NCBI RefSeq assembly: GCF_003130705.1
Contig: NZ_CP021354.1
Span: 3,224,001 to 3,288,000, forward strand
Direction of reading: 5' to 3'
Length of the DNA: 64,000 bases
DNA from: Rhodococcus oxybenzonivorans
Lineage (GTDB): Bacteria > Actinomycetota > Actinomycetes > Mycobacteriales > Mycobacteriaceae
The notes below the pieces were generated by a model that saw nothing but the letters and a program-made list of their open reading frames with translations, searched no databases and was not told the origin of the DNA. Made by a program: the position numbers and the translations under genes. This document shows, in pieces, positions 28,240 through 40,022 of the stretch (its first letter is position 1; every line of letters starts with the position of its first letter).

Positions 28240-30456
28240 ATGAATGACGCGAGAGTACTGGCACACCGCTACCGGTTGGACGCGGTGCTCGGCATCGGTG
28301 GAATGGGTCGCGTGTACCGCGCGTGGGACTCTGTTCTGGACCGTCCGGTGGCAGTCAAGGTGCTACGAACCGAACTACTCGAAGAGGATCCCACGGGAAA
28401 TTGCCTGGAGCGATTTCGTCGGGAAGCGCGAATTGTTGCCAGCTTCGACCACCCAGCGATCGTCCATGTGTACGACTTGGGTGAGGATATGCTCGGCGGC
28501 GAGCGAGCGCATTTCCTCGTCATGCAACTTGTTTCGGGGAAGACCTTGCAGCAGCGTCACCGCACGGATGGCCCGCTTGCGCTGCCTCTCCTCGTCCACG
28601 TCATGGGTGACGTGCTGAGTGCGCTGCAGCACGCTCACGAACGCGGAGTTGTTCACCGAGATGTGAAGCCGGCGAACGTTATGCTCACTGATTCCGGAGC
28701 GGTGAAGGTGATGGACTTCGGGATTGCGCACCTGAGGGGTTGCAGTAACCTGCTGACGGGAACCGGCAACATTATCGGCACCGTCGCCTATCTGGCACCT
28801 GAGCAGGCTCGCGACAGCCGGCTCGTCGATGCGCGCTCCGACGTGTACTCCGTCGGATGTATGTTGTATCACCTCCTCACCGACCGGCTGCCCTTCCCTG
28901 GTGATACCCCGTGGCAGATCCTCGCCTCGCAGCTGGAGCGTCGTTACGTTCCGGCTTCTGAGGTGAGACCGATGCTCGGCACCGTCTTCGACGACGTTCT
29001 GAAGCGGGCCCTTGCCCTCGAACCAGACCATCGCTATTCCAGTGCCGCCGAAATGTGTGTGGAGCTGTTCGCCCTGAAGCCCAGCCTCTCGGCCGAACCG
29101 GGCCAGTTCGCGTCCGACCGCACCTCGGCGTCCGCATCCGCATCCGCATCCGCGACGATGTTGTCGGGACCGGACGACACCGAAACGCAGGTTGCGAACC
29201 TGCCCAGCAAATTCCACTCCACAGCGCCGGCTTCGGGACCCATAGGCCTGCAGACCGGATCGTCGCCGGAAGTGCGCCATCCGTCCTTCGACAGCCTGGC
29301 GCCGCCACCGCTCACACCGGCATCTCCGCCGACGGATCAACCGTTGGTCGGCAGAACCGGGCCGAGCCGCCGGGAAGTCCTGGCCGGTTTGGGTGGAGGG
29401 GCAGTACTCGTGGCCGGTGGGGCCGCGATCTGGTTGATCACGTCCTCCTCGGACGGGAAGCCCTCTTCTCCAACGCTTTCCGGTCGACCCGGCGCGGTGC
29501 TGTGGACTGCTTCGGCTGGCACCGTGATCATCTTCTCGGCGCCGACCCTGGGTGCCGGCCTCGTCTACATAGGTGGCTACGACAACAACGTGTACGCGTT
29601 GGACGCAGCGACCGGGGTGCAGCGCTGGACAGCTGCCACTGGGGACCGGGTCAGGCCGTCGCCGGCCTTCGCCGACGGACTGGTCTATGTCGCGAGCTGG
29701 GACGGGAACGTCTACGCACTCGAGGCGAAGACGGGAGAAGAGCGCTGGAAGACCGCACCCGGCAACCCGGGCGACACGTTCCCGGTTTCACCGGTGGTGT
29801 CCGACGGGACGGTGTACTTCGGTGCTACCGACTGGTACGTCTACGGGCTCGACTCGGCCACCGGTGCGATGCGCTGGAAGACCCGCACCAACGGTGCCGC
29901 CGCCGCGGCCCCAGCGGTCGCCGATAGTGTGGTGTACCTCGGAACCGAGGGGTACGTGTACGCGCTGGATGCCCACACCGGCACGGCGCAGTGGGCGAGC
30001 CCCGTGGGGGGCCAGGTCTGGTCGTCGCCGGCCGTTGGGGACGGACGCGTCTACCTCGGCAACGAGGACTTCGCGGTGTATGCGCTCGACGCCGGCTCCG
30101 GCGAAGTCCGCTGGAAGACCCTTACCGGCGGCGAGGTTTATTCGTCGCCGGCGGCAGCGGGGGGCCTGGTTTACGTCGGCAGCTACGACAAGAACGTGTA
30201 TGCGCTCGACGCCGGCTCCGGCGAAGTCCGCTGGAAGACCCTTACCGGCGGTCAGGTTCATTCGTCACCGGCCGTGGCAGACGGCGTGGTTTATGTCGCC
30301 AGCTGGGACGGCTACCTCTATGCCCTTGACGCGCAGGACGGCACGGTACGGTGGAAAACTCCTATGGGCGGGCAGGTCTGGTCTTCGCCGACCGTCTCCG
30401 ACAAGCTGGTCTACCTCGGCAATTACAACGGGAAGGTATACGCCGTCGAGAGATGA
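28240..30456 (+). CDS. membrane Ser/Thr protein kinase with extracellular PQQ beta-propeller
   Basis: Residues 11-275 form a PknB-type kinase: Gly loop GIGGMGRVYRAWD, Lys40, HRDVKPAN (139-146), DFG (159-161) and APEQA. A Ser/Ala/Pro-rich juxtamembrane linker (about 290-375) leads to one membrane helix (about 378-398: VLAGLGGGAVLVAGGAAIWL). Outside the cell, residues 415-738 hold about eight PQQ/quinoprotein-type repeats of ~40 residues (pattern G-x-V-Y-x-x-x-x-D-x-x-V-Y-A-L-D-A-x-T-G-x-x-R-W). This propeller is the sensor. The convergent gene, ending 6 bp away, encodes an exported sugar-binding-type lipoprotein that could be its ligand or partner. Confidence 0.92.
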   Translation: MNDARVLAHRYRLDAVLGIGGMGRVYRAWDSVLDRPVAVKVLRTELLEEDPTGNCLERFRREARIVASFDHPAIVHVYDLGEDMLGGERAHFLVMQLVSGKTLQQRHRTDGPLALPLLVHVMGDVLSALQHAHERGVVHRDVKPANVMLTDSGAVKVMDFGIAHLRGCSNLLTGTGNIIGTVAYLAPEQARDSRLVDARSDVYSVGCMLYHLLTDRLPFPGDTPWQILASQLERRYVPASEVRPMLGTVFDDVLKRALALEPDHRYSSAAEMCVELFALKPSLSAEPGQFASDRTSASASASASATMLSGPDDTETQVANLPSKFHSTAPASGPIGLQTGSSPEVRHPSFDSLAPPPLTPASPPTDQPLVGRTGPSRREVLAGLGGGAVLVAGGAAIWLITSSSDGKPSSPTLSGRPGAVLWTASAGTVIIFSAPTLGAGLVYIGGYDNNVYALDAATGVQRWTAATGDRVRPSPAFADGLVYVASWDGNVYALEAKTGEERWKTAPGNPGDTFPVSPVVSDGTVYFGATDWYVYGLDSATGAMRWKTRTNGAAAAAPAVADSVVYLGTEGYVYALDAHTGTAQWASPVGGQVWSSPAVGDGRVYLGNEDFAVYALDAGSGEVRWKTLTGGEVYSSPAAAGGLVYVGSYDKNVYALDAGSGEVRWKTLTGGQVHSSPAVADGVVYVASWDGYLYALDAQDGTVRWKTPMGGQVWSSPTVSDKLVYLGNYNGKVYAVER
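30076..30251 (+). repeat. duplicated propeller-blade DNA, 120-bp period
   Basis: A 56-bp stretch at 30076-30131 is repeated exactly at 30196-30251. The spacing of 120 bp equals one 40-residue propeller repeat, so a whole blade was duplicated recently or homogenised by gene conversion. Confidence 0.85.
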
Positions 30457-30462
30457 CCGCGG

Positions 30463-31653
30463 TTACCTCGGTACGTACTCCTCATGCCAAACGATCTCGC
30501 GGGTGGCGTAACTGACGTTGCCGAGCAGCGGCAGGTAACGTTCGTAGCGTGTGCGATCGGCGAAGACCGCTGCGGGACTCGCATTGTCCGCTATGTAAGT
30601 GTCGACGCTGCCTGGCGAATCGAGCACGATCGGTTTTGCCACGATAACCCGCGGGATCTGCTTACCCTCGATCCAGTCGGCGGCAAATTGTCCCAGCCCG
30701 TATCCCATCAGGTGCCACGGGAACGCAATGCTGGCGCGGTAGGGTCCGTCGTTCTTGACAAGTGCCAGCGCCTCCTTGTCGCCGTCGACACCGGAGAAGT
30801 ACATGTCGTCGGCGAGCTTGCCGGACTGGTCCAATGCCCTGTAGGCGCCCACCACCAGGGTGTCACCACCGAGGATGATCCTGATGTCGGGCTGCTCCGC
30901 GATGACGGTGCTCATGATCGCGGCACCATTGGCGGTCGAGATGTCGGGTGCATCCACATCGCTGACCACGCTCAAGCCACTGCCTGCGCTCCGCAGGCCG
31001 TCCAGTACGCCGGCGTGCCTCAACTGCAGCTGCGGTGAGGCGGAGTCCAAATTGAAGTAGTGCACTTTCGCGTTCCCCTGGAGGCGCGCGGTCGCGAAAT
31101 CCGCTGCTGCCTTGCCCTGCGTGAAACCGATGTCGTACTGGTTGGCGGCGACCTGGAGCGTGCTCGGCTGAGTGATGATGCCTTGCACGCAGACGCCTTG
31201 TCGCAAGGCGGCATCGAGGATGGGGCGTTGAATCACCGCGTTGAGCGGTTGGAATGCCAGTGCGCCGACGCCGCGGGCGAGGAACGTTTCGAGCTGGCGG
31301 AGATTCTTCGTAGGGTCGTCGCCAGAGAAGGCGGTGAGGTATTGCAATCCCCGTTCCCTCGACGCGGCTTCCACTCCGGCGCCGAGGGCGAGGAAAAATT
31401 CTGCGGCCGCGGTGCTGGCCCAAGCGGCGCGCCGGGGTAGTCCAGTGGGGGGTCCGCTTGGCAACGAGGGATCGAATTGGCCGAGTTCCTCAGGCGGCGC
31501 CGGCGATTTTGGGCCGCCGGCCTGCGAATTGCCGTTCTTCGACGCACACGCCGCCGAGAGCGCGGCGCCGGCCATGCCAGACCCCGCCAGCGCCCCTAGT
31601 CTGAGCAGGTCACGGCGACTCAGTCCGGGCAGGTGCCGCTTCTCGAACGGCAT
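30463..31653 (-). CDS. Tat-exported substrate-binding lipoprotein (type 1 periplasmic-binding fold)
   Basis: The 396-residue protein begins with a twin-arginine signal (LSRRDLLRLGALAGSGMAGA) and a lipobox S-A-A-C, so it is probably exported folded and then lipidated. The rest matches sugar ABC-transporter binding proteins of the RbsB group: LQYLTAFSGDDPTKNLRQLE, GVGALAFQPLNAVIQRPILD, DIRIILGGDTLVVGAYRALD and DDMYFSGVDGDKEALALV. No permease or ATPase gene is adjacent. TATCGT lies 6 nt before ATG 31653 (leaderless). Convergence with the PQQ kinase suggests a sensing rather than a transport role. Confidence 0.83.
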   Translation of the reverse strand: MPFEKRHLPGLSRRDLLRLGALAGSGMAGAALSAACASKNGNSQAGGPKSPAPPEELGQFDPSLPSGPPTGLPRRAAWASTAAAEFFLALGAGVEAASRERGLQYLTAFSGDDPTKNLRQLETFLARGVGALAFQPLNAVIQRPILDAALRQGVCVQGIITQPSTLQVAANQYDIGFTQGKAAADFATARLQGNAKVHYFNLDSASPQLQLRHAGVLDGLRSAGSGLSVVSDVDAPDISTANGAAIMSTVIAEQPDIRIILGGDTLVVGAYRALDQSGKLADDMYFSGVDGDKEALALVKNDGPYRASIAFPWHLMGYGLGQFAADWIEGKQIPRVIVAKPIVLDSPGSVDTYIADNASPAAVFADRTRYERYLPLLGNVSYATREIVWHEEYVPR

Positions 31654-31768
31654 GGCTCGACGATAGCAAGCGAATCAGTTCGTGGCGATCTAGATGGCGT
31701 TGCCCGGTTGGCGGATGCGCGAGTTGTCGGCGACCCCACCCGCACCAGGGCCGACTCGTCGAGCTCGG

Positions 31769-32230
31769 TCACTTGCCCAGCGAGGCGGTGTCGGTGATGT
31801 TCGCCAATCGGACCTGACCCTTCGAGACCAGCCGATCGTTCTCGTCGGTGATCCGGACCTCCCACAATTGCTGGGTGCGACCGCGGTGAATCGGGCTGGC
31901 CTCGGCGGTCAGCGTGCCGTCGCGTGTGGCGCGGAGAAAGTCGGTGTTGTTGTTGACCCCGACCACGTGTCCCCGACCGCCCAACCACATCATTCCGGCC
32001 GTGCTTGCCACCGATTCGACGACCGCGCAGTACACGCCGCCGTGCTGAATTCCGGCGGGCTGCTGCAGGTCCGGGGTGACCGTCCACTGGGCGCACACGC
32101 GATCCGGACCGAGTTCGGTGTACTCGAGACCGATCACGGCATCGAATCCCTTGCCCAATCGCTGAAGCATCACGTCGGTGCCGATCGGACCGTCGCCGTT
32201 CGTGGCCTGCCGTTCGGGGGAACCCACCAT
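31769..32230 (-). CDS. PaaI/hotdog-fold thioesterase (Rv1847-like)
   Basis: This 153-residue hotdog protein starts at ATG 32230 behind GGAG. It has the substrate-binding G-I-Q-H-G-G-V-Y-C-A-V-V-E-S-V-A helix (catalytic acid region), then VGVNNNTDFLRATRDGTLTA, and RTQQLWEVRITDENDRLVSK near the end, as in acyl-CoA thioesterases of the PaaI/ComA2 group. Its position and strand relative to the sRNA candidate and blaI match Rv1847 of M. tuberculosis. The substrate is not predictable. Confidence 0.85.
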   Translation of the reverse strand: MVGSPERQATNGDGPIGTDVMLQRLGKGFDAVIGLEYTELGPDRVCAQWTVTPDLQQPAGIQHGGVYCAVVESVASTAGMMWLGGRGHVVGVNNNTDFLRATRDGTLTAEASPIHRGRTQQLWEVRITDENDRLVSKGQVRLANITDTASLGK

Positions 32231-32333
32231 CACACACTCCATTGGATCACTGGGCGCTGTCGCAGCGCATTCGTTTCTCCTGCCTACACGACGTCGGTGC
32301 GGGAGCGGGAAGCAGGTGTGCCGAAAACAGATC

Positions 32334-32367
32334 GGCGGGCCCCACACCCTTCGGTGTGAGGCCCGCC
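32334..32367 (-). terminator. intrinsic terminator of the sRNA candidate
   Basis: GGCGGGCC pairs with GGCCCGCC and CACACC with GGTGTG, with one mismatch between them and a 4-nt loop. On the minus strand it is followed by GATCTGTTTT, giving a short U-run. Confidence 0.85.
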
Positions 32368-32453
32368 ATGAGTGGACCGGGAGTCTCTGCAGCCCTCAGG
32401 ACTCCGGTACGGTCCGGCAGTTCGGTTCGAGATGTCGTGCGTGCCGACGTGGC
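32334..32453 (-). ncRNA. predicted IdeR-regulated small RNA, positional match to MrsI (ncRv11846)
   Basis: On the minus strand a promoter with -35 TTGCAA, an 18-bp spacer and -10 TATAGT (32460-32465) is overlapped by an IdeR-type box (32463-32481). About 110-120 nt downstream lies a strong terminator hairpin (32334-32367) followed by TGTTTT. In between there is no supported reading frame, but a second hairpin of roughly 10 bp with a 7-nt loop at 32377-32407. In M. tuberculosis the iron-starvation sRNA MrsI lies between the thioesterase gene Rv1847 and blaI (Rv1846c), on the Rv1847 strand, under IdeR control; order and strand agree here. The 5' end is estimated from the -10 box. Confidence 0.7.
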
Positions 32454-32459
32454 CCCCTG

Positions 32460-32481
32460 ACTATAGGCAAGGCTGCCCTAA
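32460..32481 (-). promoter_or_regulatory. -10 box and IdeR-type operator of the sRNA candidate
   Basis: The box ATAGGCAAGGCTGCCCTAA (32463-32481) matches 14 of 19 bases of the IdeR consensus TTAGGTTAGGCTAACCTAA. It overlaps the minus-strand -10 TATAGT (32460-32465); -35 TTGCAA lies at 32484-32489. Iron-loaded IdeR bound here would block the promoter. Confidence 0.65.
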
Positions 32482-32494
32482 TTTTGCAACCGCT

Positions 32495-33196
32495 TCAGTG
32501 GATCCGCGTCAGCCGGGTCTTCCACCGGACCGGCGCACCGGCGGACACGAAAGCGTCCAATATGCCCTGACCGCGGCGCTGAGCGGCCGACTCCCCCTCG
32601 CCTGCGAGGATCGGCACGTATGTCGAGGCGCCGAGTACTGCCTCCCCGACCAGACCCCAGAAGCGAGAGGCGTCGATCGGCGTGCACCGCGCGATCGCGT
32701 CGAAAATCGCGTGCAGCGATGTGAGGCAACGGTGAACGGTCCAAACCAGGAGTGCTCGTTCACACGGCACTGTCACCGTGCCCCGGGTGCCGGCCCACGG
32801 ATCGTCGGGCAGAACCCGCATCGTGTCGTCGGCGAGCCCCGCCCAATCGATGCCGCCGTCGCTGTCCATGTGAATCCACAGATTCTCGAGGCCCGGGTCC
32901 CACGCGCGCCCTTCGAGGACGACGAGCGCGGTGACTCGCCCGACCACGGCGTGGATGAGCGAGGTGGCGACCTGCATCGCGGCGACGTCGGGGTCCGGAA
33001 CGTCCTCGAGGGAGCGGGCCCACATACGCGGAACGCGGTCACCGTCCAGATCGTCTGCAAGCGACCACCACCGCCGTTTTCCCTCGTCGGCCATCGATGC
33101 GACCGCATACATCCGCGGATAGTCGGGATTCAATGAGCGAAGGCGCGCGCAGGACGCGTCCAGAGCGGTCGCGGGGGCAGACAGGGTAGAAGTCAC
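32495..33196 (-). CDS. siderophore-reductase-like/IucA-IucC C-terminal-like protein
   Basis: GTG 33196 lies behind GGAG; the product has 233 residues. Its helical pattern (PDVAAMQVATSLIHAVVGRV, LVWTVHRCLTSLHAIFDAIA, ASRFWGLVGEAVLGASTYVP) resembles FhuF-type ferric-siderophore reductases and the IucA/IucC C-terminal-like proteins that accompany siderophore uptake genes in actinobacteria. The C-terminal Cys cluster that holds the 2Fe-2S centre in FhuF is missing, so reductase activity is doubtful. The gene diverges from the FecCD operon across a 215-bp region with two IdeR-type boxes, so an iron role is well supported. Confidence 0.62.
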   Translation of the reverse strand: MTSTLSAPATALDASCARLRSLNPDYPRMYAVASMADEGKRRWWSLADDLDGDRVPRMWARSLEDVPDPDVAAMQVATSLIHAVVGRVTALVVLEGRAWDPGLENLWIHMDSDGGIDWAGLADDTMRVLPDDPWAGTRGTVTVPCERALLVWTVHRCLTSLHAIFDAIARCTPIDASRFWGLVGEAVLGASTYVPILAGEGESAAQRRGQGILDAFVSAGAPVRWKTRLTRIH

Positions 33197-33233
33197 CGTG
33201 CACTCCAATCGGTCGGGTGGAACCGTTCTCAAC

Positions 33234-33252
33234 GTAGGTGAGCCTAACCAAA
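33234..33252. promoter_or_regulatory. IdeR/DtxR-type iron box (proximal to reductase-like gene)
   Basis: GTAGGTGAGCCTAACCAAA matches 15 of 19 bases of the IdeR consensus. It lies 38 bp upstream of GTG 33196. Confidence 0.78.
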
Positions 33253-33334
33253 TTACAAGAGTTGCTTTCCTGTGATGTAGAGCACCCACTGCAGCGCGCC
33301 GGAAGTGGACATACCGCCCGCAGGGACATCAGAG

Positions 33335-33353
33335 ATAGGGTTCCGTAACCTAA
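33335..33353. promoter_or_regulatory. IdeR/DtxR-type iron box (proximal to FecCD operon)
   Basis: ATAGGGTTCCGTAACCTAA keeps both outer half-site ends (TAGG and AACCTAA) and matches 13 of 19 consensus bases. It lies 59 bp before GTG 33412 of the permease operon. Confidence 0.65.
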
Positions 33354-33411
33354 GTAGTTGAATCGGTGCAGATTCGGTTCCGGTGCACACACGTCAGGAG
33401 CTTTTCCCGCA

Positions 33412-34881
33412 GTGACGACGACGAGACAGTTCGGCAGCGACCTCCCGCACCTGCCGACCGACGAGGAGTACGGGAAGCGCGACATTCCGCGCGGTCCGGC
33501 TCCCCTGCCTCTGCGGGCACTCGCAGGATTCCTGGATGCGGTCGTGGTGGCCATTCCCCTGGTTCTCGGCTGGTACATCGTCGATGCGCTCAGTGACAGC
33601 AACGGCGGCGGTCAGGCAGACCGGGTCGTCTTCGGTGGTGCAACCGTCGCGATCGCCGTCGGACTGGCGGTCTGGAACAAAGGGTTTCGGGAGGGCAACA
33701 CCGGGCAGAGCTCGGGCAAGGGGTGGGTCGGTCTCGTGACCCGGGATGCGACGAGCCTCGGCGCGATCGGCCCGAAGCGATCGTTGTGGCGCCTGGTTCA
33801 GCGGTCCGGTACCGAGGTGGTCCGCGACCGTACAGCGGACGACGAGGGATTCGTGGCTCGCGAGAAGGACGGGTCCGTCGCCGCGATCCGCCGCCGCCGG
33901 CTGATCGGACTGGGCGTCCTCGTGGTCTTGCTCGGGCTCGTGTTGCTCGCCAGCATCGCGGTCGGGGCGCGCCCCCTCTCGTTCACGGAGATCTTTTCCG
34001 CGCTGTTCGACGCGGACGGGTCCCAGGCGGACATCATCGTCCGTACGTTGCGTGGCCCCCGCACGATCCTCGGCCTCGTCGTCGGAATGGCACTAGGGGT
34101 TGCGGGTGCGCTGATCCAGGGTCACACCCGTAATCCCCTCGCGGACGCGGGCCTTCTCGGCCTCAACGCGGGCGCCGCGTTCCTCGTCGTCCTCTCGATG
34201 TACCTGTTCGGATTCAGCGCCCCGAGTGAGTACCTCTGGTTCGCCTTCGCCGGATCGTTCCTTGCGAGCGTGGTGGTGTTCGGCCTGTCATCGATCGGCA
34301 ACGGAGCCGCCAGCCCGTTGAGCCTCGCCCTGGCCGGAGCCGCGGTCGCCTTCTTCCTGCAGGCGATGACCAACGCGATCATCATCGTCGACCAGGCCAG
34401 CCTCGACTCCTACCGGTTCTGGGTGGTCGGTTCCGTGGCCGGACGCGGATTCGATGTGCTCTGGCAGGTGCTGCCGTTCCTCGTGATCGGTTTGCTGCTC
34501 GCCCTCGCCAGCACCCCTGGCCTCAACGTGCTGAGCCTCGGCGAAGACGTGGCCCGCTCCCTCGGCACCAACATCGGCGCGAGCCGCGCCCTCGGCATCG
34601 TGGCGATCACCCTGCTGACCGGGGCAGCGACGGCCGCCTGCGGTCCGATCGCCTTCATCGGCCTCGTCGTTCCGCACGTGGCACGCGCGATCACCGGCCC
34701 CGACTACCGCTGGCTGGTGCCCTACGCGGGACTCCTCGGCGGCGTGATGCTGGTGACCGCGGACGTCATCGGACGTGTTGTCGTGCGCCCCGGTGAACTT
34801 CAGGTCGGGATCGTCCTGGCCGTCTTCGGTGCCCCATTCTTCATTGCGTTGGTGCGGCGCAGAAAGCTGGCAAGCCTGTGA
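33412..34881 (+). CDS. FecCD siderophore permease fused to an N-terminal RDD domain
   Basis: The 489-residue protein is longer than the usual ~340-residue FecCD permease. Residues about 30-135 look like an RDD domain: PLRALAGFLDAVVVAIPLVL (Arg and Asp of the signature), a second hydrophobic segment VVFGGATVAIAVGLAVW, then TGQSSGKGWVGLVTRD. After a charged linker the FecCD fold starts near residue 168. It includes TLRGPRTILGLVVGMALGVA, GHTRNPLADAGLLGLNAGAA, the ATPase-contact loop region LGEDVARSLGTNIGASRALG and PIAFIGLVVPHVARAITGPD. GTG 33412 has AGGAG upstream. It is the first gene of an IdeR-boxed three-gene operon. Confidence 0.87.
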   Translation: MTTTRQFGSDLPHLPTDEEYGKRDIPRGPAPLPLRALAGFLDAVVVAIPLVLGWYIVDALSDSNGGGQADRVVFGGATVAIAVGLAVWNKGFREGNTGQSSGKGWVGLVTRDATSLGAIGPKRSLWRLVQRSGTEVVRDRTADDEGFVAREKDGSVAAIRRRRLIGLGVLVVLLGLVLLASIAVGARPLSFTEIFSALFDADGSQADIIVRTLRGPRTILGLVVGMALGVAGALIQGHTRNPLADAGLLGLNAGAAFLVVLSMYLFGFSAPSEYLWFAFAGSFLASVVVFGLSSIGNGAASPLSLALAGAAVAFFLQAMTNAIIIVDQASLDSYRFWVVGSVAGRGFDVLWQVLPFLVIGLLLALASTPGLNVLSLGEDVARSLGTNIGASRALGIVAITLLTGAATAACGPIAFIGLVVPHVARAITGPDYRWLVPYAGLLGGVMLVTADVIGRVVVRPGELQVGIVLAVFGAPFFIALVRRRKLASL

Positions 34882-35984
34882 CCGTCGACGACCAGACCCG
34901 CCCCGATCCGGTCGCGCCGGCGAAGTCACGCGTCCCGGCACGACCGCCTTTCCGGCTCGGTCCGCTTTCCCTCGTCCTGCGTCCCCTCGGCATCGCGGTG
35001 AACGTTGCGCTCCTCGCGGCGCTGTTCCTCGTGCTGTGCCTGAATATCGGCCGCGGCGACTACCCGCTGTCCATCCCCGAGGTCACCACGGTCCTCTTCG
35101 GCGGCGGCACCAAGGCGCAGAGCTTCATCGTCATGGATCTACGACTGCCGCGGTCGTTGACCGGGGTGTTCATCGGCATGGCCCTCGGACTCGCCGGCGC
35201 GCTGACCCAGTCGATCGCCCGCAACGCGCTGGCCAGCCCCGACATTCTCGGGATCACCTCGGGCGCGAGTGCGGCCGCCGTCGCCCTCATCGTCCTCGGC
35301 GGAGGTGGCAGCTTCGTCGGGCTCCTCGCCACCCTGGGAATTCCTCTGGCCGCGTTGTGCGGTGCACTTTTGACCGCGCTGACCATCTATCTGCTGGCGT
35401 GGCGCGGCGGGGTCGAGGGCTACCGGCTGATCCTCATCGGCATCGGCATCAACGCCATGCTCATCGCCGTCACCGGATGGCTTCTCATCTCCGCGGACAT
35501 CAACGACGCCTCCCGCGCCCAGGTGTGGCTCAACGGGTCACTGAATGGTGCGTCGTGGAGTCAGGTGTGGCCGGTGATGGTCGCGGTCGTCCTCGTCGGC
35601 GGTTATGCGATCGGATCCTCGTTCACGATGGGTGCGCTGCGCCTCGGCGACGACAATGCCGTGTCGCTGGGTGTGCGACTGCAGTGGTCGCAGGCACGGT
35701 TACTGCTCATGGCGGTGGCCCTCGCCGGAATCGCGACAGCGGCCGCCGGCCCGGTTGGATTCGTCGCACTCGCCGCCCCGCAGGTGGCGCTGCGGTTGGT
35801 GCGGTCGGCCGGGCCACCCCTCATCGCGTCCGCGTTGACGGGTGCGGTGCTCGTGGTCGGCAGCGATGTGATCGCGCGGACGATCCTGCCGGTCGAGTTG
35901 CCGGTCGGTATCGTCACCTCGGCCCTCGGTGGGCCGTTCCTGCTCTACCTGTTGGTTCGCAACAATCGGAAGGTTTCGGCATGA
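34878..35984 (+). CDS. FecCD-type siderophore ABC permease
   Basis: The 368-residue partner permease starts at GTG 34878, overlapping the previous stop. It has the FecCD features DLRLPRSLTGVFIGMALGLA, QSIARNALASPDILGITSGA, LGDDNAVSLGVRLQWSQARL (coupling helix) and PVGFVALAAPQVALRLV. Together with the fused permease it forms the heterodimeric channel for ferric-siderophore import. No binding-protein gene is adjacent, so it must be encoded elsewhere. Confidence 0.92.
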   Translation: MTVDDQTRPDPVAPAKSRVPARPPFRLGPLSLVLRPLGIAVNVALLAALFLVLCLNIGRGDYPLSIPEVTTVLFGGGTKAQSFIVMDLRLPRSLTGVFIGMALGLAGALTQSIARNALASPDILGITSGASAAAVALIVLGGGGSFVGLLATLGIPLAALCGALLTALTIYLLAWRGGVEGYRLILIGIGINAMLIAVTGWLLISADINDASRAQVWLNGSLNGASWSQVWPVMVAVVLVGGYAIGSSFTMGALRLGDDNAVSLGVRLQWSQARLLLMAVALAGIATAAAGPVGFVALAAPQVALRLVRSAGPPLIASALTGAVLVVGSDVIARTILPVELPVGIVTSALGGPFLLYLLVRNNRKVSA

Positions 35985-36814
35985 CCGTGCAGACCGACTC
36001 TCGGCTGAGCGCCGAGGACCTGAGCCTGGGATACGGCGACCGCATCATCGTCGAGAACCTGAATCTCGAGGTGAAGACCGGGGTGATCACCACCGTGATC
36101 GGCCCCAACGGGTGCGGAAAGTCCACCTTGCTGCGGGCGCTCGGCCGGCTCCTGAAACCTCGGTCCGGTTCGGTGGTCCTCGACGGCAAGGCGATCGGTT
36201 CGCTGCGCACCAAGGATGTGGCCCGCATCCTCGGGATGCTCCCCCAGGCGCCGATCGCGCCGGAGGGGCTCACCGTCGCCGACCTCGTGGCCCGCGGACG
36301 GCATCCGCACCAGTCGTGGATTCGGCAGTGGTCGTCCGACGACGAAGGCGAGGTGGCGGAGGCACTTGCGCTGACCGGAGTCTCCGAACTGGCGGACCGC
36401 CCCGTCGACCAGCTGTCCGGTGGGCAACGCCAACGCGCCTGGATCTCCATGGCGTTGGCGCAGGGCACCGACATTCTGCTGCTCGACGAGCCCACCACCT
36501 ACCTGGATCTCGCGCATTCGATCGAGGTGCTCGACTTGGTGGACCGGATGCACGAGGAGATGGGCCGCACCGTCGTGATGGTGCTGCACGACCTCAACCT
36601 GGCGATCCGCTACAGCGACCAGCTGATCGTGATGCGTGATGGCAAGGTCGTCGCCGCCGGCGCACCCAAGGACATCATTTCTGCCGAACTTCTCCTCGAG
36701 GTGTTCGGGCTCGAAGCCGCGGTGATCGGCGACCCGGTGTCCGACCGTCCGCTGGTGGTGCCGATCGGCACCCGCCATGTGTACGGCGCGGTGGGCGGCC
36801 CGGAGCGGGCCTAA
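35981..36814 (+). CDS. ferric-siderophore ABC transporter ATPase
   Basis: The 277-residue FepC/FhuC-type ATPase overlaps the permease stop (ATGA). Walker A is G-P-N-G-C-G-K-S-T, the Q-loop lies in LGMLPQAPIAPEGLTV, the signature is L-S-G-G-Q-R-Q-R-A-W, Walker B is ILLLDEPTTYLD, and the switch His lies in VVMVLHDLNLAIRYSD. It supplies energy to the two FecCD permeases. It ends 1 bp before the convergent MprF-like gene, and no terminator is obvious. Confidence 0.94.
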   Translation: MTVQTDSRLSAEDLSLGYGDRIIVENLNLEVKTGVITTVIGPNGCGKSTLLRALGRLLKPRSGSVVLDGKAIGSLRTKDVARILGMLPQAPIAPEGLTVADLVARGRHPHQSWIRQWSSDDEGEVAEALALTGVSELADRPVDQLSGGQRQRAWISMALAQGTDILLLDEPTTYLDLAHSIEVLDLVDRMHEEMGRTVVMVLHDLNLAIRYSDQLIVMRDGKVVAAGAPKDIISAELLLEVFGLEAAVIGDPVSDRPLVVPIGTRHVYGAVGGPERA

Positions 36815-39608: not shown

Positions 39609-40022
39609 ATGGCTGGACTCGGCGAACTCGAACGCGCAGTGATGGATCACCTGTGGTCCACTTCGGAACCGCAGACGGTGCGGCAGGTGCACGAAGCTCT
39701 GGCAGAGCGTCGCGAACTCGCCTACACCACCGTCATGACCGTGCTGCAGCGACTGGCGAAGAAGCACCTCGTCATCCAGCAGCGCGATGATCGCGCCCAC
39801 CGGTACCTGCCCGTGCATCAGCGCGAAGAACTGGTCGCCAGCCTCATGGTCGACGCCCTGCAGCAGGCCGACAAGTCCGGCAGTCGGGCCGCCGCCCTCG
39901 TGCATTTCGTCGGTCAGGTCGGTGCAGACGAGGCGGACGCTCTCCGGGAGGCACTGGCTGCGCTCGAAGCCAAGGAACGGTCCGGCGACGGCAACGAGAC
40001 GGGAACCGTTCGCGCCGTCTGA
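39609..40022 (+). CDS. blaI: BlaI/MecI/CopY-family transcriptional repressor
   Basis: The 137-residue winged-helix repressor shows the BlaI pattern: LGELERAVMDHLWSTSEPQT-VRQVHEALAERRELAYTTVM-TVLQRLAKKHLV, then the wing R-A-H-R-Y-L-P and a C-terminal dimerisation helix region (AALVHFVGQVGADEADALRE). Upstream is its palindromic operator. Cleavage by the BlaR-type protease encoded next would relieve repression. Gene order corresponds to Rv1846c-Rv1845c of M. tuberculosis, where BlaI also controls distant genes such as the beta-lactamase; none is present here. Confidence 0.92.
   Translation: MAGLGELERAVMDHLWSTSEPQTVRQVHEALAERRELAYTTVMTVLQRLAKKHLVIQQRDDRAHRYLPVHQREELVASLMVDALQQADKSGSRAAALVHFVGQVGADEADALREALAALEAKERSGDGNETGTVRAV

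Follow-up and report, generated by a model that had tools for sequence, protein, structure and literature searches.

The window analysed here is a 64 kb stretch of Rhodococcus oxybenzonivorans DNA, and the element in question is a cassette on its minus strand that spans 32489–32323 from promoter to terminator and is predicted to encode a small RNA (sRNA) related to MrsI of Mycobacterium tuberculosis. The cassette opens with a σ70-like promoter (32489–32460) consisting of a −35 element TTGCAA (32484–32489) and a −10 element TATAGT (32460–32465) separated by 18 bp; this was the only promoter-like site on scanning 31000–34000 (shuffle mean 0.4, standard deviation 0.6). A predicted box for the iron regulator IdeR (32463–32481) overlaps the −10 element and the spacer and scores 14/19 on the plus strand and 13/19 on the minus strand. 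Judging from the position of the −10 element, transcription would start at about 32453, giving a predicted sRNA (32323–32453, minus strand) of approximately 125–130 nt. It is closed by an intrinsic terminator stem-loop (32333–32368, minus strand), the 16-pair stem of which is directly followed by ATCTGTTTTC in a T-rich tail (32332–32323). The scan returned two terminator-like sites compared with a shuffle mean of 1.3, a count that is not above chance on its own; the call is nevertheless credible because of the length of the stem and its covariation across species. The first-pass annotation had described an sRNA gene of this composition, and its promoter, IdeR box, hairpin-rich noncoding body and terminator with U-run were all confirmed, the transcript itself being a prediction; the length that it gave, about 120 nt, comes out slightly greater here. 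A search with Rfam release 15 (4227 models) gave nothing at gathering score over the window and nothing at E ≤ 1 over 32200–32600.

IdeR boxes were scored as matches to the 19-position IdeR consensus. Counting both strands, just three places in the window attain 14/19 (32463, 33234 and 33335), compared with none in 12 Markov-shuffled windows. The box at 33234–33252 (16/19 on the minus strand) is the best in the window and precedes the gene at 32495–33196, and that at 33335–33353 (14/19 on the minus strand) lies upstream of the importer genes described below. All three places belong to one iron locus, made up of the RNA, the gene upstream of it, whose product falls in no named family, and a siderophore-type importer encoded divergently. 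Across genomes, an IdeR-like box scoring at least 13/19 was found within about 130 nt upstream of the RNA in 78 of 79 loci, the sole exception (G187) scoring 12/19, compared with 4.8% of control windows drawn from these loci, some of which are probably true boxes of neighbouring iron genes. The strict box pattern was present in 26 of the 27 loci from the genus, and the remaining locus (L026) reaches at least 13/19 in the scored scan.

The segment 32453–32325 folds with a free energy of −65.7 kcal/mol (z −3.8), and none of 200 shuffled sequences reached a value as low. Upstream of the terminator the predicted fold contains a conserved stem-loop (32374–32415, minus strand) with a lower stem GGACCG/CGGTCC, an upper stem GGAGTCCTG/CAGAGACTCC and a 7-nt apical loop AGGGCUG (32390–32396, minus strand), which is the probable seed. 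The 7-nt loop noted earlier is retained (32396–32390), with its hairpin moved from 32377–32407 to approximately 32415–32374. All 27 genus loci contain CTGAGGGCTGCAG. When these 27 sequences were folded together, double changes were found in 12 of 29 pairs, all in the terminator, the hairpin being nearly constant within the genus. Covariation was also assessed on a wider set of 55 diverse sequences (1636 cells, 500 shuffles, five measures). Here 94.7% of the cells were paired, a figure that is favoured by the use of one of the 55 sequences as the template for the structure; the double changes, which occur in 21 of 30 pairs, are the stronger evidence. These include all 15 pairs of the terminator and, in the apical stem, a change from U–A to C–G in two sequences of genus g23 and from U–A to A–U in one sequence of genus g16. 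The covariation score was 0.376 (0.168 for shuffled alignments), none of the 500 shuffles reached any of the five measures, and sliding the pairing partners reduced pairing to 34.9–46.1%. The loop bases GGGCUG are invariant in 55/55 aligned sequences; the first loop base deviates in one.

The next gene downstream of the RNA (31769–32242, minus strand) encodes a 4HBT/hotdog thioesterase (Pfam PF03061, TIGR00369) in the position of Rv1847. On the other side lie the gene at 32495–33196 (minus strand), a siderophore-type ABC importer identified by domain searches (two FecCD permeases and an ATPase; 33412–36814, plus strand) and, about 7 kb from the RNA and divergent from it, a BlaI-like repressor gene (approximately 39609–40022, plus strand; below the NCBIfam cut-offs), the interval being occupied by the iron-uptake transporter and other genes. 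Synteny was counted over 81 loci and strand over 80 rows, in which one genome appears twice. The thioesterase gene lies on the 3′ side of the RNA in 79 of 81 loci and does so in the same orientation in 78 of 80 rows, usually within 50–200 bp, and the upstream protein is encoded on the 5′ side in 52 of 81 loci and, again co-oriented with the RNA, in 53 of 80 rows. In every locus with blaI in the fetched flank (33/33) this gene is upstream and divergent. The upstream protein is missing from 25 of these 33 loci, including the Gordonia locus L112, so that blaI directly adjoins the RNA there, as published for M. tuberculosis. The MrsI-like placement claimed in the first-pass annotation thus agrees in the 3′ thioesterase gene on the same strand and in blaI on the opposite strand, and departs in the window in the distance of blaI.

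Within the genus the cassette was matched in 27 of 28 genomes, the genome that was missed (G019) being 75% complete. A model built from these 27 loci (R1), which is information-poor (effective number 1.12) and may miss copies, matches 297 of 401 genomes of the family with the 27 training genomes included (291 of 383 good-quality genomes) in 21 of 31 genera. In genus g29, which was taken as Mycobacterium, it matches 337 of 396 genomes (320 of 361 of good quality). Laxer rechecks gave no additional strong match: 25 of 38 chosen genomes matched at E ≤ 1, the 21 strong ones being already known, and six of 11 genomes matched at E ≤ 10, namely five strong and already known and a partial match in G462. 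This last locus (L120/L124; taken for M. lepromatosis) looks decayed, with a box and a changed, partial hairpin and no recognisable terminator. Model R2 was run on 39 mostly unmatched g29 genomes and gave matches at E ≤ 1 in 14. One of these (G711, 33.8 bits) is a true copy by its loop, box and gene order; another (G738, locus L161) lacks both the IdeR box and the loop, which looks like loss of the RNA, although the thioesterase gene and a terminator hairpin are still there. The best matches in the other 12 genomes were rejected as copies, having neither the thioesterase gene nor the box. In an order-wide draw of 200 genomes, with which the R2 training set overlaps, R2 matched 27 family genomes and five outside the family at 33.7–38.7 bits. 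These five, which were not inspected, were taken as chance terminator hairpins, a view supported by extra matches of similar score in G032, a genome of the family in which the main match is strong.

Pairing of the loop was assessed on the leaders (−60 to +30) of Mycobacterium bfrA, for which 34 matches in 31 genomes yielded 30 that were taken as loci; the genomes are related, so the counts that follow are not independent. One of the four 6-nt loop complements is present in 19 of the 30 leaders compared with 11.9% of control windows taken from these loci, the site being CAGCCCTC near −26 in several of them, and the complete 7-nt complement is present in five. If G–U pairs are allowed, runs of 8 nt were found in 9/30 leaders (3.5% of controls), runs of at least 7 nt in 12/30 (10.4%) and runs of at least 6 nt in 25/30 (49.5%). 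The bfrA leaders of G413 and G286, two genomes of this set with no match to the RNA, contain no exact loop-complement site. Given this enrichment, the loop AGGGCUG probably acts as a seed and in Mycobacterium probably pairs with the bfrA leader.

We interpret the element as the Rhodococcus homologue of MrsI, a trans-acting iron-sparing sRNA under IdeR control, and assign this full reading a probability of roughly 0.85. According to the accessible parts of the published accounts, MrsI (ncRv11846) of M. tuberculosis is encoded at 2096766–2096867 on the plus strand between blaI and rv1847; the RNA is about 100 nt long and has a predicted terminator, a 7-nt apical loop and, close to its start, an IdeR site (PMC8628891, PMC11188477); slightly different coordinates are given in PMC7029489. 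The identification as an MrsI counterpart, which the first-pass annotation had considered probable, is largely supported, because the element combines the synteny, an IdeR-like box, a covarying fold with a near-invariant 7-nt loop and presence in Mycobacterium. In the proposed mechanism, iron-loaded IdeR would bind the box and repress an sRNA of about 125 nt, and iron starvation would switch its transcription on. The sRNA, ending at its own terminator, would act in trans, its hairpin loop AGGGCUG pairing as a seed with the mRNA leaders of dispensable iron proteins. Expression of these proteins would be lowered by the pairing and iron would be spared.

Several observations weigh against this interpretation. 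The transcript is a prediction from sequence features, and the MrsI assignment is based on a comparison with the published description of the M. tuberculosis RNA. Of the modelled pairs, 23–45 cannot form in 29 of the 55 sequences, nor 21–50 in 21 of the 53 with letters on both sides, and many relatives show poor pairing in the lower portion of the upper stem. The search for bacterioferritin (Bfr) targets with the loop, as had been proposed, gave matching sites in the Mycobacterium leaders and not in the leader of the window's own Bfr, which has no exact 6-nt loop complement; the best run there is 6 nt and needs G–U pairing. Outside Mycobacterium, runs of at least 7 nt were found in the bfr leaders of 5/15 genomes with the RNA and 1/4 without it. 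Loop complements are likewise not enriched at 1360 gene starts, called with a crude gene caller in 1.6 Mb of the 8.0 Mb genome: CAGCCCT occurs four times (mean for sequences of the same composition 8.2), AGCCCTC four times (8.2) and GCAGCCC six times (15.2). No classical iron enzyme was recognised by eye among the 14 genes with a 7-nt or G–U match, and no convincing loop target was found among the ferritin-like genes of this genome. One ferritin-like gene (L187; second contig, C2:842600–842983) contains a TAG in frame and is possibly a pseudogene. From this contig, one of four in the assembly, an 8-kb piece matched 35 plasmid records, all but one from Rhodococcus, with R. jostii RHA1 the best (98.1% identity across 60% of the piece).

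Three other explanations were considered. The first accepts an MrsI-homologous, IdeR-controlled sRNA and gives it a role in Rhodococcus other than loop-pairing iron sparing, for example protein binding. The missing target signal in this genome fits such a role, as does conservation within the genus of the entire apical hairpin beyond the loop, but the same loop has matching sites in the bfrA leaders of Mycobacterium, and we regard this explanation as unlikely. The second takes the element to serve the thioesterase gene chiefly in cis, as its leader or attenuator, in which IdeR would set initiation and the terminator would set read-through. It is a serious alternative because the thioesterase gene is nearly always present, on the same strand and at the short distance given above. 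Set against it are the strong, covarying terminator that closes the RNA, the invariant hairpin loop, as expected of a pairing site, and the description of MrsI as an independent trans-acting transcript in the accessible part of PMC11188477. In addition, a separate GTGTAGNCA-like box is present between the terminator and the thioesterase gene (32242–32332, minus strand, in the window) in many loci, although not in all, and may be that gene's own promoter. We consider a leader function to be quite improbable. That the interval instead encodes a small protein is highly improbable: a sense open reading frame of at least 12 codons is present in 16 of the 27 genus loci, some close relatives sharing one, but 11 loci have none, none is common to all 27, and the alignment shows compensatory changes as well as gaps whose lengths are not divisible by three.

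For the remaining features of the locus, the upstream protein (32495–33196) has no Pfam, NCBIfam or PDB relative and is probably a member of an unnamed iron-related family. An alignment-free structure prediction of this protein was discarded (mean predicted local distance difference test score, pLDDT, 42.6). In the importer, the permease encoded at 33412–34881 (plus strand) has an N-terminal RDD-family domain (Pfam RDD, 27.6 bits) fused to FecCD. Elsewhere in the window, a Ser/Thr protein kinase domain is fused to a PQQ-type β-propeller at 28240–30456 (plus strand).

Returning to the reading as an MrsI homologue, the copies in many related genera point to an old, shared RNA switch. It is possible, although we would place it somewhat below an even chance, that MrsI, rather than being a mycobacterial invention, is an IdeR-controlled RNA ancestral to the family as a whole (Rhodococcus, Gordonia, Mycobacterium and others), with its loop frozen by one or a few widely shared targets and with the bfrA pairing gained or lost by lineage. 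This picture of lineage-specific bfrA pairing draws on 11 genomes that bear the RNA among the 20 of 41 family genomes with no Bfr match at 1e-30, and on the Bfr of this Rhodococcus, which has no exact site. This suggests that an iron-sparing sRNA may be of long standing and stable even as a known target, such as bfrA, is gained in some lineages and lost in others. The family-wide sequences and the near-invariant loop allow a comparative search for targets, and Rhodococcus provides an easily grown host for experiments on the RNA.

What is chiefly new is the distribution across the family, the RNA type itself being already known from mycobacteria. In the literature accessible to us no description of an MrsI-type RNA outside mycobacteria was found; the primary MrsI paper may discuss its conservation. 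Publications naming both MrsI and Rhodococcus contained MrsI only as a reference-list entry where examined, and among the titles listed in a search with the loop sequence none was about this RNA. In comparison with MrsI of M. tuberculosis and M. smegmatis, as far as the accessible descriptions go, the element shares its place between blaI and the thioesterase gene, the latter being 3′ of it and co-oriented, an IdeR site close to the start (here the predicted 14/19 box over the −10 element), a structured RNA of similar length with a predicted terminator, and a 7-nt single-stranded apical loop (here AGGGCUG, predicted; the MrsI seed is 6–8 nt). It differs in the gap of about 7 kb to blaI, which includes iron-uptake genes, in its predicted length of about 125–130 nt compared with about 100 nt, and in that its own genome yielded no exact bfr site. 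The same logic, an sRNA that is induced by low iron and lowers the mRNAs of iron proteins, is followed by RyhB, PrrF, FsrA and IsrR in the accessible part of PMC9410917. According to that source RyhB and FsrA are controlled by Fur, whereas the RNA described here carries a predicted IdeR box.
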